Source of the DNA: Oceaniglobus indicus
GTDB lineage: Bacteria; Pseudomonadota; Alphaproteobacteria; Rhodobacterales; Rhodobacteraceae
Assembly: GCF_002751875.1 (NCBI RefSeq)
Contig: NZ_NMZM01000007.1
Coordinates: 124,001 to 188,000, forward strand
Length of the DNA: 64,000 nt
Direction of reading: 5' to 3'
The position numbers were made by a program, and so were the translations under genes. The notes below the pieces were generated by a model. The model did not search any database. It was not told where the DNA came from and saw only the letters and a program-made list of their open reading frames with translations. Of this stretch, positions 2,174-5,372 are shown piece by piece (position 1 is the first letter of the stretch; each line of letters opens with the position of its first letter).

Positions 2174-2389
2174 ATGGCGAATGACTGGATACTTGACGTA
2201 CTGACGGACTTGAAGCAATTCGCGTCGCGCAATGATCTGTCGGCCCTGGCCGAGCAGTTGGAGCGGGCGTCTGCGGTGGCGGCATTCGAAATCGCCACCG
2301 GTGAACAGCGGGCCGTGGCCCTGATCGGACGAAATGCGGCAGAAGCGCGAATGGTTCATCGAGAGGTTGCAATCCACGACGACGCTTGA
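2174..2389 (+). CDS. 71-aa protein preceding and overlapping luxR
   Basis: Small acidic protein beginning MANDWILDVLTDLKQFASRN. Its 3' end overlaps the luxR start by 56 bp in a different frame. I recall similar short proteins with the motif DWILDVLxDLKxFA directly before luxR in other Rhodobacteraceae, so it is probably a real gene of the quorum-sensing locus, but I know of no function. It is predicted helical and has no signal peptide or membrane segment. An in-frame start exists 39 bp upstream (2135), but the conserved-looking N-terminus favours 2174. Translation across the overlap could couple it to luxR. Confidence 0.6.
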   Translation: MANDWILDVLTDLKQFASRNDLSALAEQLERASAVAAFEIATGEQRAVALIGRNAAEARMVHREVAIHDDA

Positions 2390-3047
2390 CGATCTGCGCG
2401 CCGAAATCTTCCGGCTGCGGGATGCCTTCGAAGCGGAACATCTGGTCTATCATTCCGTCAACTCCATCGGCGAACAATATGCCGCACTGACCTATTCCGA
2501 CGCCTGGGTAAGCGAATACACCACACAGGATTACGCCCGTATCGATCCGGTGGTGCAGGGCTGTCTGCGCCGCTTTCATCCGGTGGATTGGAAACAGCTC
2601 GACTGGTCGCCCAAGCCCACCCGCGCGTTCCTGGGCGCGGCCGTCGACAACGGCGTGGGCCATCAGGGGTATTCGGTGCCGATCCGTGGCCCCAGCGGCC
2701 AGTTCGCGCTGTTCACGATCAGCCACCGCGCCACTGACGAGGCCTGGAAAACCTTTCGCGACGCGCACCTGTCCGACCTGATCCTGTTGGCGCATTTCAT
2801 CAACCAGAAGGCGCTGGAAATCGAACGCGGGTCCGATCACATCCCGGTGCAGAAACTGTCACCGCGCGAGGTCGATGCCCTGACGATGCTGGCGTCCGGT
2901 CTGAACCGGGCCCAGGCCGCCGATACCCTGGCCATCTCTGAACACACATTGCGCGTCTACATCGAAAGTGCGCGCTTCAAGCTGGGCGCCAGCAACACCA
3001 CCCACGCGGTGGCCAAGGCGCTGGCGCAGGGGCTTCTGATCCTCTAG
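2334..3047 (+). CDS. luxR: LuxR-family autoinducer-responsive regulator
   Basis: Quorum-sensing transcription factor of 237 residues. The N-terminal autoinducer-binding domain (about 18-160) keeps the expected aromatic/acidic pocket: W58, Y62, D71-P72 (in YARIDPVV) and W86. The C-terminal GerE/LuxR helix-turn-helix spans about 175-219 and starts LSPREVDALTMLASG. It would bind the acyl-homoserine lactone made by the LuxI encoded 114 bp downstream and act at a lux-box-like palindrome just after its own stop. The start shown gives MRQKREWFIERL, typical of Rhodobacteraceae LuxR proteins. It has only a weak Shine-Dalgarno, consistent with coupling to the overlapping upstream ORF. Confidence 0.93.
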   Translation: MRQKREWFIERLQSTTTLDDLRAEIFRLRDAFEAEHLVYHSVNSIGEQYAALTYSDAWVSEYTTQDYARIDPVVQGCLRRFHPVDWKQLDWSPKPTRAFLGAAVDNGVGHQGYSVPIRGPSGQFALFTISHRATDEAWKTFRDAHLSDLILLAHFINQKALEIERGSDHIPVQKLSPREVDALTMLASGLNRAQAADTLAISEHTLRVYIESARFKLGASNTTHAVAKALAQGLLIL

Positions 3048-3054
3048 CGGGGAT

Positions 3055-3074
3055 TCGGCAGGAAATTCTGCCGA
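3055..3074. promoter_or_regulatory. Perfect 20-bp dyad, candidate lux box for luxI
   Basis: TCGGCAG (3055-3061) and CTGCCGA (3068-3074) are exact reverse complements separated by GAAATT. The size and position fit a LuxR operator: it lies 87 bp before the luxI ATG and starts 7 bp after the luxR stop. It could alternatively form a short terminator hairpin for luxR, but only a weak T run (CAGTTTTAGG) follows. The operator reading is preferred. Confidence 0.55.
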
Positions 3075-3130
3075 CAGTTTTAGGCAACGCGCGCTTGCGC
3101 AGGCGCGTATTAACCACAACCGGGCGATCC

Positions 3131-3155
3131 CTTCCTTCACCTCAAGCGAAGGAAG
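3131..3155 (+). promoter_or_regulatory. Hairpin enclosing the luxI ribosome binding site
   Basis: CTTCCTTC (3131-3138) is exactly complementary to GAAGGAAG (3148-3155) across a 9-nt loop. The right arm is the apparent Shine-Dalgarno of luxI and ends 6 nt before the ATG. In the mRNA the eight base pairs would hide the ribosome binding site, so luxI translation may need helix opening by temperature, an RNA, a protein or translating ribosomes. The pairing is seen directly; the regulatory role is inferred. Confidence 0.5.
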
Positions 3156-3161
3156 ATCAGG

Positions 3162-3785
3162 ATGATCCGGTATATCTATGGCAATGGCCTGTCCACTTAT
3201 CCGCGGCTGCGCGACAGCATGTTCGCCGACCGCGCGGCCCAGTTCCGCCATCGTCTGGGATGGGACGTGGCGCTGGACGATGCGGGGCGCGAACGGGATC
3301 AATACGACGCGCTGAACCCGCTTTATATCATCTGGGAACGTCCCGATGGCCTGCATGGCGGATCCCTCAGGTATCTGCCGACCACCGGGCGCACCATGCT
3401 GGGTGAACATTTCGGTCATCTTGCCGATCCGGTGCGTGATCCGCTGATCTGGGAATGCACGCGGTTCTGCCTGGCACCGGGGGCGGGCGGCCATGTGTCG
3501 GCCGCGCTGATGCTGGGCGGGCTCGAGGTCGGGCTGAACCTTGGTCTGACCCATGCCGTCGGCGTCTTCGATGCCCGGATGCTGCGGGTTTATGGCCGCC
3601 TCGGCTGGCCGCCAGCGGTGCTGGGGCGCGACGGGGCGGGACGGGACGCGATCTGTGCGGGTCTCTGGACCTATGGGCCGGAGTTGCGGGCGGCGTTGCT
3701 GGCCCGCGCCGGGGTGTCATCAGAAGTGTCGCGTCATTGGTATCGGCGGGCCTTTGGGGATGGGAAACTGGTTCTGGCGGCCTGA
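3162..3785 (+). CDS. luxI: Acyl-homoserine-lactone synthase (LuxI family)
   Basis: Autoinducer synthase of 207 residues, which makes an N-acyl-homoserine lactone from S-adenosylmethionine and an acylated carrier protein or CoA. Conserved features of the family are present: R17, MFADRAAQF (20-28), LGWDV with W34, ERDQYDALNPLYII (Asp46 and Asp49 region), GGSLRYLPT and the late motif WECTRFCL carrying the conserved Glu and Arg. The signal's chain length cannot be told from sequence. It is paired with luxR upstream. Its translation start sits 6 nt after a base-paired Shine-Dalgarno, which suggests post-transcriptional control. Confidence 0.94.
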   Translation: MIRYIYGNGLSTYPRLRDSMFADRAAQFRHRLGWDVALDDAGRERDQYDALNPLYIIWERPDGLHGGSLRYLPTTGRTMLGEHFGHLADPVRDPLIWECTRFCLAPGAGGHVSAALMLGGLEVGLNLGLTHAVGVFDARMLRVYGRLGWPPAVLGRDGAGRDAICAGLWTYGPELRAALLARAGVSSEVSRHWYRRAFGDGKLVLAA

Positions 3786-3827: not shown

Positions 3828-5372
3828 ATGCAGATGCCCGCCGAAACCGCCCAGATCGCCTTTTCCGAAGACCAGGCCCTGGCCTATGATCGCATCACCG
3901 AGGTGCTGCGATCCGCCGGTATCGATCTGGACAACGACACGTGGCGCCCCATGGCCGAAGGCAAATCCCACCTGTTGGCCGTCGTCGGCAAGGCCGGATC
4001 GGGCAAGACCCTGCTTCTGGCACGGCTTTACAAGGCGCTGGAGGAGGCGGGGGTCGATGTCGTGTCCGGCGATTACGAATCGCGCAGGAAGAAAGATCGC
4101 CGCACGCTGGCGATCCTGGCGCCGACCAACAAGGCGGCTTCGGTGCTGCGCAACCGTGGCGTGCCGGCGACGACGATCCACCGCATCCTCTATACCCCTG
4201 TTTACGATCCGGAATACGAAAAGGTCGCCGAATGGCTAGCCGGAAACGGCGAACGCCCGGTGGTCGAGGGACTGACCGATCTGGCGCTGGATCGTGCGCT
4301 GGCGTTTTACCAGACGAACAAATCTGTGCCCGGCGCGCTGGCCACCGCCGGGCTGCGCGGCAGCGATTTCATCACCGGCTGGAAACGCCGGGAGGAGCCG
4401 CTGGATATCGGGCTGGTCGATGAATCCTCGATGCTGGACAACCGCCAGTTCGAGGACCTGCAAGAGATCTTCCCGACGCTGCTGTTGTTCGGCGATCCGG
4501 CACAGTTGGCGCCGGTGCAACAATCCGGGGCGATGGTCTTTGACACGCTCGAGCCGGAACGCAAACTGGTGCTGCACCGGGTCCACCGACAGGACAAGGA
4601 CAACCCGATCCTGGACCTCGCCCATGCCCTGGCCGACGACTCCCTGACCTTCGACACATTCGAGCGGATGGTCGAGGACGCGGCACAGCGCGACGGTCGC
4701 GTCGTGCTGGCGCAGCGGGTCGAGGCGTCGAAAATGGCGCGCTCGCCGGTTCTGGTCTGGCGCAACGCCACGCGGATCCGGCTGATCCACGCCTTTCGGG
4801 CGGCGTATGGCGCACCGCCCGACGCCCTGCTGCCCGGTGAGCCGTTGATCTGCGACGGTCTGGAACTGCCGCTGAAGCACCGCAAGAAACGCATCGACCT
4901 CGAGGCGCGGGGCCTGATCAAGGGCGCGCAGGTGATCTTTCTGGGGCAGGGGCGCAAGCCCGGATTTTCGCGCCTGCACGTCATCGGCGCCGAGGATCCC
5001 CAGGTCAGTGCCGCCTCGATCGTCAAGATCGAGATGCCGGACGAGGAAGAACCCTTCATCCCCTTCGCCGCGCGCATGGGGGCGACGTTCCTGCACGGCG
5101 CGGCGGTGACGATCCACAAGGCGCAGGGGTCGCAATGGCGCGACGTGCAGGTGTTCGCCCCCGACCTGTTCGCCGCCGCCCGCGTCGGACGCACCGAAGC
5201 CGGGATCGCGCTGTGGAAGCGGCTCGCCTATGTCGCGATCACGCGGGCCGAGGAACGGCTGTTCTGGGTGGTGCGCAACCGGCTGGCGCGGCCCGATCAA
5301 CCCCTGGGCGTCGATGACCTGACGGCGGCACCGGCGCCGCTGTCGCTGGAAAGCGGGGAGGAAGACGCCTGA
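3828..5372 (+). CDS. ATP-dependent RecD-like DNA helicase
   Basis: Superfamily 1 helicase of 514 residues. Walker A GKAGSGKT is at 54-61, followed by TNKAASVLRNRGVPATTIHR (motif Ia region), the Walker B-like VDESSMLDN, the FGDPAQLAPV motif III and, near the C-terminus, HGAAVTIHKAQGSQWRDV with YVAITRAEERLFWV, the UvrD/RecD C-terminal box. It is shorter than RecD or RecD2 and lacks a long N-terminal extension. It is often annotated as an AAA or ATP-dependent RecD-like helicase and probably acts in DNA repair or replication. It follows luxI by 42 bp but shares no evident function with it. Confidence 0.85.
   Translation: MQMPAETAQIAFSEDQALAYDRITEVLRSAGIDLDNDTWRPMAEGKSHLLAVVGKAGSGKTLLLARLYKALEEAGVDVVSGDYESRRKKDRRTLAILAPTNKAASVLRNRGVPATTIHRILYTPVYDPEYEKVAEWLAGNGERPVVEGLTDLALDRALAFYQTNKSVPGALATAGLRGSDFITGWKRREEPLDIGLVDESSMLDNRQFEDLQEIFPTLLLFGDPAQLAPVQQSGAMVFDTLEPERKLVLHRVHRQDKDNPILDLAHALADDSLTFDTFERMVEDAAQRDGRVVLAQRVEASKMARSPVLVWRNATRIRLIHAFRAAYGAPPDALLPGEPLICDGLELPLKHRKKRIDLEARGLIKGAQVIFLGQGRKPGFSRLHVIGAEDPQVSAASIVKIEMPDEEEPFIPFAARMGATFLHGAAVTIHKAQGSQWRDVQVFAPDLFAAARVGRTEAGIALWKRLAYVAITRAEERLFWVVRNRLARPDQPLGVDDLTAAPAPLSLESGEEDA

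Follow-up and report, generated by a model that had tools for sequence, protein, structure and literature searches.

A hairpin that hides the luxI ribosome-binding site in Oceaniglobus indicus and recurs in most related luxI genes examined in the same family

The Shine-Dalgarno sequence (SD) of a luxI gene of Oceaniglobus indicus, located in a window of 64,000 nucleotides (the whole stretch of DNA that was analysed), is paired within a hairpin of the luxI leader, and an SD-hiding hairpin is common to most of the related luxI genes examined in the same bacterial family, the Rhodobacteraceae. Occlusion of the SD recurs in the family, the two halves of the leader co-evolve, and the arm that faces the SD is anchored to an upstream promoter block. 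From this we conclude that SD occlusion is very likely to be under selection in one class of luxI genes. As to its role, we see about an even chance that the hairpin acts as a read-through lock, i.e. that RNA reading through from luxR into luxI would be closed and luxI's own RNA open.

The luxR-luxI locus and the hairpin over the SD

The luxI gene (3162-3785, forward strand, as are luxR and all leader elements described here) encodes an acyl-homoserine-lactone (AHL) synthase with a MIRY/MLRY start, referred to here as class A, and matches the Pfam family PF00765 with 73.7 bits (curated cut-off 24). Upstream in tandem lies luxR (2334-3047), encoding an AHL-binding regulator (PF03472 and PF00196). 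Of the 155 luxI loci compared below, 153, the window included, have a LuxR homologue upstream in the same orientation, with a median of 101 nt from the luxR stop to the luxI ATG; one of the two loci without it (L097) has only 82 nt of upstream DNA. Just past the luxR stop, the fold of 3048-3190 contains a terminator-like stem (3055-3074), followed by a short T run (TTTT; stem and T run lie within 3055-3081). The terminator scan does not list the stem at 3055-3074; a stem of this kind would itself lower read-through from luxR. The neighbours of the gene pair are a gene for a zinc-type dehydrogenase upstream (691-1986; PF00107, PF08240) and, downstream, a gene matching AAA_30 and UvrD_C_2 (3828-5372).

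The original prediction of a perfect 8-bp stem over the luxI SD was borne out, since the left, or anti-SD, arm CTTCCTTC (3131-3138) and the right arm GAAGGAAG (3148-3155), which contains the SD, show 100% complementarity, and the right arm ends 6 nt ahead of the luxI ATG at 3162, as had also been described. The SD/anti-SD duplex spans 3147-3154, and the 9-nt loop ACCTCAAGC (3139-3147) would hold the predicted start of luxI's own transcript. In the minimum-free-energy (MFE) fold, an outer helix joins 3119-3130 (3119-3124 and 3127-3130) with 3160-3171 (3160-3163 and 3166-3171), its 3' strand bringing part of the start codon and codons 2-4 into pairing. The 25-mer 3131-3155 folds with -9.8 kcal/mol (z -3.96; 1 of 200 shuffles equally good), and the segment 3112-3180 reaches -24.7 kcal/mol (z -4.34; 0 of 200) because the outer helix also pairs. 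A comparison of the fold of 3075-3220 with shuffled sequence, which had been suggested as a check, gave z -2.43 (2 of 200), and the shorter segment 3125-3180 was not unusual (z -1.02; 33 of 200).

As a measure of occlusion we used the cost of opening the SD, computed with ViennaRNA on RNA from -50 to +20 at 37 C. For the window luxI this cost is 12.3 kcal/mol, a value that 13 of 279 control genes from its genome also reach; the starts of these controls were taken from the window and 20 further stretches by a crude gene finder that favours strong SDs. Within its genome alone the hairpin is therefore uncommon, and with the relatives added it is clearly beyond chance. With the SD in one arm, the anti-SD in the other and pairing above chance expectation, the element has the properties of an SD-sequestering cis hairpin, and we conclude that the hairpin hiding the luxI ribosome-binding site is real.

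SD occlusion and co-evolution of the leader halves in relatives

Related leaders were analysed in two samples. The first comprised the window, 25 loci (L006-L030) and the best 80 of 574 confirmed loci, i.e. the best matches to a seven-protein query, which after removal of 2 duplicates gave 104 leaders (L002-L005 are excluded from this count, and their genomes enter as L031-L034). The second comprised 51 further genes, one per genus or genome, picked by score band from part of a list of PF00765 matches, for which 149 genera of the family were searched and 131 had a match. The pooled set contains 155 leaders, 4 of which duplicate others. A plasmid search yielded 720 records, all below 60% identity and with Agrobacterium and Rhizobium leading.

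The median SD opening cost was 9.9 kcal/mol in the 104 luxI leaders of the first sample compared to 4.9 kcal/mol in the 279 control genes (Mann-Whitney U test, p 4e-22), and luxI SDs cost more although the G+C content of the luxI leaders (0.55) is lower than that of the controls (0.63). The second sample, in which starts were picked by a script with a bonus for a MIRY/MLRY-like start and a strong SD, gave a median of 10.8 kcal/mol (51 genes). Open leaders by the same measure amount to 8 of 104 (cost of at most 5) and 5 of 51 (below 5). In two paralogous LuxI classes the SD cost was 4.2 (class B, 19 top-scoring PF00765 matches) and 3.4 (class C, 8 low-scoring matches), where the starts of the third class are uncertain, several of its genes lack an SD and 1 of 9 gave no start; the names A, B and C are our own and derive from start motifs and score bands, with no tree behind them. 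If stems are scored as Watson-Crick pairs minus 1.5 per mismatch, 23 of the 155 luxI leaders reach a score of at least 8, compared to 3 of the 279 control genes. The loop lengths of the relatives span the entire 3-20 nt permitted by the search. A tuning of closure to SD strength was considered as well and is not distinctive of luxI, the Spearman coefficient being 0.23 in luxI leaders and a similar 0.18 in the controls.

Further evidence came from a swap test, in which the upstream half of a leader was replaced by that of another species. In 84 leaders less than 60% alike, the SD cost was 10.0 kcal/mol with the native half (self) and 6.2 kcal/mol in the chimeras; self exceeded the chimera mean in 71 of the 84 (p 2.5e-12) and ranked in the top 5% in 39. 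The control genes showed 5.57 and 5.51 kcal/mol, respectively, with self above the mean in 126 of 279 and in the top 5% in 23 of 279. The contrast was replicated in the 51-gene sample (10.4 vs 6.65; self higher in 45 of 51, p 7e-8), and the class B paralogues gave 4.26 vs 4.06, with self higher in 10 of 19. Since occlusion is lost when the upstream half is swapped, the left arm co-evolves with the SD, and both swap tests indicate a complementarity that is maintained by evolution. Shuffling of the leaders (from -50) likewise lowered the cost from 9.92 to 6.07 kcal/mol, compared to 5.57 and 5.55 in the control genes. Leaders cut at -26 were slightly more open than their shuffles (4.37 vs 4.65), an openness which is not luxI-specific because control genes behave in the same way (5.06 vs 5.16).

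Compensatory base changes, which had also been proposed as a check, gave a divided picture, in that covariation in a fixed register is weak and the swap test is strong. Among two-sided changes in 72 leader pairs, the base pair was kept in 22 of 45, compared to 11.3 of 34 for slid partners; one-sided changes kept the pair in 49 of 211, and in 97 of 236 for slid partners, which more often start unpaired. Such weak pair-by-pair covariation would not by itself establish a structure. The stems seem to slip in register, whereby occlusion is kept and not a fixed set of pairs, which would argue against a bound ligand, a protein or a conserved sRNA.

Promoter blocks and the position of the left arm

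Upstream of the hairpin lies TTAACC (3110-3115), a conserved promoter-region element of the luxI clade by its recurrence in relatives, where 120 of 150 leaders, compared to an expectation of 18.5, contain a match of at least 5 of 6 positions between -75 and -38. The hexamer bears what we take to be a resemblance to a CtrA half-site. A CCGnnCGG-like block, here ACGCGCGC (3087-3094), ends 15 nt before TTAACC and sits inside an imperfect dyad (3088-3108); it may be a LuxR operator. The copy in the window has 4 of 6 matches and is below the threshold of 5 of 6 used for the relatives, where 78 of 120 leaders contain the block, compared to a shuffle expectation of 40.5. The gap to TTAACC is exactly 15 nt in 46 of these 78, and it is this fixed gap that is the signal, as the CCGnnCGG block alone is not rare by chance. 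A search of the own genome for the combined CCGnnCGG/TTAACC pattern with at most 1 mismatch was discarded as uninformative about genome-wide use, because the reversed pattern gave more matches (123+115) than the pattern itself (79+71).

Downstream of TTAACC, the dinucleotide TA peaks at +15 (19 of 120) and +16 (37 of 120), compared to 0-7 at any of the remaining offsets between +6 and +33, and a TA at +14 to +17 is present in only 59 of the 120 TTAACC-anchored leaders. The sixth base of the TA hexamer is mostly C (0.61) and less often T (0.32). The window itself has no TA and reads GATCCC at 3126-3131. No -35 hexamer is visible in the promoter logos, and position +17 is often a purine (A 0.58, G 0.22; 76 leaders). 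If the TA is read as part of a -10 element, luxI's own transcript would begin at roughly +28, close to the loop edge (the loop itself begins at a median of +30); in the window, this start is predicted at about 3138-3140, by analogy with the relatives since the TA is missing there. At 161 other TTAACC sites, a following TA is most frequent at +12 (24), with minor maxima at +16 (11), +20 and +21 (10 each for the last two), so that a -10 element at +16 is not independently proven. A de novo motif search downstream of TTAACC returned a weak TCA-like signal at about +27 to +32 (log-likelihood 56, compared to 24-35 in 5 shuffles), which we regard as a hint only. Regarding luxI start sites in Rhodobacteraceae, nothing usable was present among the papers listed by our literature searches, and the terms "transcription start" and "ceri promoter" are absent from the C. 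sphaeroides paper PMC11655674.

The left arm would thus lie in the stretch that leads from the -10 element to the transcription start of the predicted luxI promoter. For RNA beginning at this predicted position the SD costs 3.2 kcal/mol to open, compared to 8.9 kcal/mol for RNA beginning 14 nt further upstream (n=59). Upstream of this predicted start are 88% of the left partners of the SD, including all of them in 40 of the 59 leaders, and in the other 19 some left partners lie beyond it. Stepwise 5' truncation of 150 leaders lowered the cost from 10.1 at -50 to 4.0 at -26 (controls, 4.9 to 4.3), and in 92 well-closed leaders closure survived in 96% when the RNA began at +17, in 63% at +21 and in 17% at +28. 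In the window, closing is lost once the 5' end passes about 3134-3136, the cost being 10.0 kcal/mol with a 5' end at 3130, 5.4 at 3134 and 1.7 at 3136; with a 5' end at 3139 the SD is open, at a cost of 1.6 kcal/mol at 37 C.

We then asked, in leaders with a well-paired SD, whether the left arm follows the SD as the distance between promoter and SD grows. The Theil slope of the left-arm offset against this distance was 0.16 (-0.04 to 0.38; n=104) when measured from TTAACC and -0.09 (-0.35 to 0.15; n=52) when measured from TA, compared to 0.90 in the shuffled null; ordinary regression of the same offset gave a slope of 0.44 (p 1e-4; shuffled null 0.85). From this we conclude that the left arm is mostly tied to the promoter at a roughly fixed distance and not to the SD.

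Possible roles of the hairpin

We favour a mechanism in which the hairpin would be a conserved cis-acting lock on luxI translation. RNA entering the gap from luxR would carry both arms, its SD would be closed, and little or no synthase would be made from it. The luxI promoter, with the putative architecture CCGnnCGG - 15 nt - TTAACC - 9 or 10 nt - TA seen in many relatives, would start transcription within the loop or where the left arm ends on its 3' side, and this own RNA, without most of the left arm, would present its SD unpaired in a leader some 26 nt long. Production of synthase would then be confined to times when the promoter of luxI itself, presumably signal-responsive, is active. Whether the anti-SD arm is in this way part of the promoter DNA, placed between -10 element and start, leaving the luxR RNA translationally silent, we judge to be an evenly balanced question. 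The luxI gene may well have an own start that leaves out the left arm; the original prediction had held that such a start would speak against the hairpin, whereas it would make the hairpin specific to RNA coming from luxR and not meaningless.

An upstream gene on the same strand that is able to supply RNA is present in nearly all loci in the form of luxR. The luxI genes of D. shibae are each described as being in an operon with a LuxR-type gene (PMC6473078), gtaRI of R. capsulatus is called an operon in a reference title within PMC6363796, and expression of luxI1 of D. shibae, which may or may not be class A, is reported as CtrA-independent, with CtrA sites at luxR2 (PMC4046655). Quorum sensing needs a quiet off-state, because even small amounts of stray synthase can set off the positive loop, and with luxR and luxI in tandem, luxR transcription threatens this state. 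If the hairpin forms in read-through RNA alone, it would solve this problem simply and independently of sequence, and would prevent accidental autoinduction from leaky luxR transcription; the question whether an anti-SD arm lies between the -10 element and the start site could also be put to other tandem regulator-enzyme pairs. Points against such a lock are the missing TA in the window, its presence in only 59 of 120 anchored relatives with mostly C as the sixth base, the lack of a visible -35 hexamer, the left partners beyond the predicted start in 19 of 59 leaders, the weak fixed-register covariation, the steeper slope of 0.44 in ordinary regression, the window's own terminator-like stem after luxR, and the open leaders in both samples.

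A similar logic is known from the transposase genes of IS10 and IS50, in which a hairpin hides the ribosome site only in RNA from outside, while transcripts of the element's own promoter begin further in and lack the left arm. The luxI leader would resemble them in the hairpin of the entering RNA, and its inside start is a prediction; it differs from them in that mobile elements face host transcription there and a tandem regulator-synthase pair is concerned here. In the transposase leader of ISPpu9 (PMC8450116), a structure is likewise thought to hide the ribosome site, and the antisense RNA Asr9, a feature of ISPpu9, is thought to help opening.

Alternatively, the hairpin could be a permanent translational brake, which we consider possible but rather unlikely. 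In this case TTAACC would be the core promoter, the own transcript would start upstream of the left arm at about +12 to +17, and every luxI mRNA would carry the hairpin, keeping output low and perhaps protecting the 5' end. Conservation of the occlusion and the swap results would be the same, and so would the anchoring of the left arm, which fits an arm between -10 and start as well as a hairpin at the very 5' end of the RNA. The fixed 15-nt gap between CCGnnCGG and TTAACC resembles a -35/-10 spacing, and TTAACC is better conserved than the TA. A -10 consensus has A and T at key positions, however, and TTAACC lacks the A and T expected there; moreover, the hairpin ceases to close at roughly the position from which a TA-based promoter would transcribe, and the high SD cost of the window would probably nearly abolish translation unless the hairpin is opened. 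Taken together, the TA peak and the point of lost closing favour the lock on read-through RNA, whereas the conservation of TTAACC and the purine at +17 leave room for the brake. Even then, a leader element whose complementarity, and not its sequence, is preserved in the majority of the 104 leaders and of the 51 genera would represent a LuxI control point that sequence-homology searches would miss.

Less probable still is a regulated opening, in which an sRNA or an RNA-binding protein, or else cleavage of the loop by an RNase, would free the SD on a signal. It would agree with the open SD of RNA from 3139 and has precedents in sinI of Sinorhizobium meliloti, controlled by RNase E and the sRNA RcsR1 (PMC5977203), and in rhlI of P. 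aeruginosa, controlled by an sRNA from its own leader (PMC6786874). The sinI case is alike as an alphaproteobacterial AHL synthase gene under post-transcriptional control at the SD region and differs in using a trans-acting sRNA and a nuclease instead of a cis hairpin of varying sequence. Stem and loop sequences vary among the luxI relatives, with some subgroups sharing the SD arm, loops range over 3-20 nt, and no Rfam family fits. As to conserved loop sequence of the kind expected in a riboswitch or a protein-bound leader, arms and loops differ between species by eye, and the columns, which were anchored to the promoter and not to the structure, reach at most about 0.4 bit. The original prediction of a translation-level gate is thus supported by computation, through the recurrent SD occlusion and the stronger pairing of self over swapped halves, but both of its examples lose ground: a single conserved trans-acting RNA would not fit sequences that vary in this way, which speaks against an sRNA target, and the second example, a thermosensor, fares no better (see below).

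A palindrome acting at the DNA level, or chance, without any RNA function, appears very unlikely. An inverted repeat beside a promoter can be an operator, and among stem mismatches the counts of G-T (17) and A-C (12) lack the clear difference that RNA would require; the spacer, however, spans the full 3-20 nt allowed, the sequence varies, and the strong contrast between self and chimera at the SD is absent in control genes and paralogues.

An RNA thermometer that opens on warming is the least credible of these readings. The SD is occluded by a single hairpin and predicted to be paired at low temperature, and the lasI leader of Pseudomonas aeruginosa contains a ROSE-like RNA thermometer that contributes to thermoregulation (PMC13104619); yet the stem is a mismatch-free 8 bp, the predicted SD cost falls only from 15.7 kcal/mol at 15 C to the value at 37 C given above, and the mean unpaired fraction of the SD is predicted to stay between 0.125 (4 C) and 0.128 (50 C), i.e. 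pairing stays at about 87%. Rfam release 15 gave no gathering-level match in the whole window, and at 2900-3400 the sub-threshold matches were MIR9677 and UPD-PKib (3123-3155), both far below gathering and neither a thermometer. The lasI case is alike in that a hairpin of an AHL-synthase leader occludes the ribosome site and control is translational, but half of that site is exposed there, compared to a perfect and predictedly temperature-insensitive stem here; lasI belongs to a different gene clade and is likened by description. Among the papers listed by our searches of an open-licence library, no title or abstract describes an SD hairpin in AHL-synthase leaders of Rhodobacteraceae.

Opening by coupled translation was considered and rejected, both for a small upstream ORF (an ATG/GTG ORF of at least 10 codons that ends near the luxI start exists in only 7 of 103 leaders) and for luxR, given the median distance of its stop.

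Some individual loci differ from the general pattern. In class B (L131-L149; start mostly MIIVID-like), luxR is located upstream on the same strand in 18 of 19 loci, yet there is no SD hairpin, so a tandem luxR alone does not demand a lock. L072 is a class-A luxI with no detectable luxR homologue within 1.5 kb upstream and a lower SD cost of 6.0. The class-A exceptions with a cheap SD (below 5) are L014, L018, L027, L076, L082, L084, L086, L102, L177, L190, L199, L207 and L210, and these leaders could reveal what replaces the lock.
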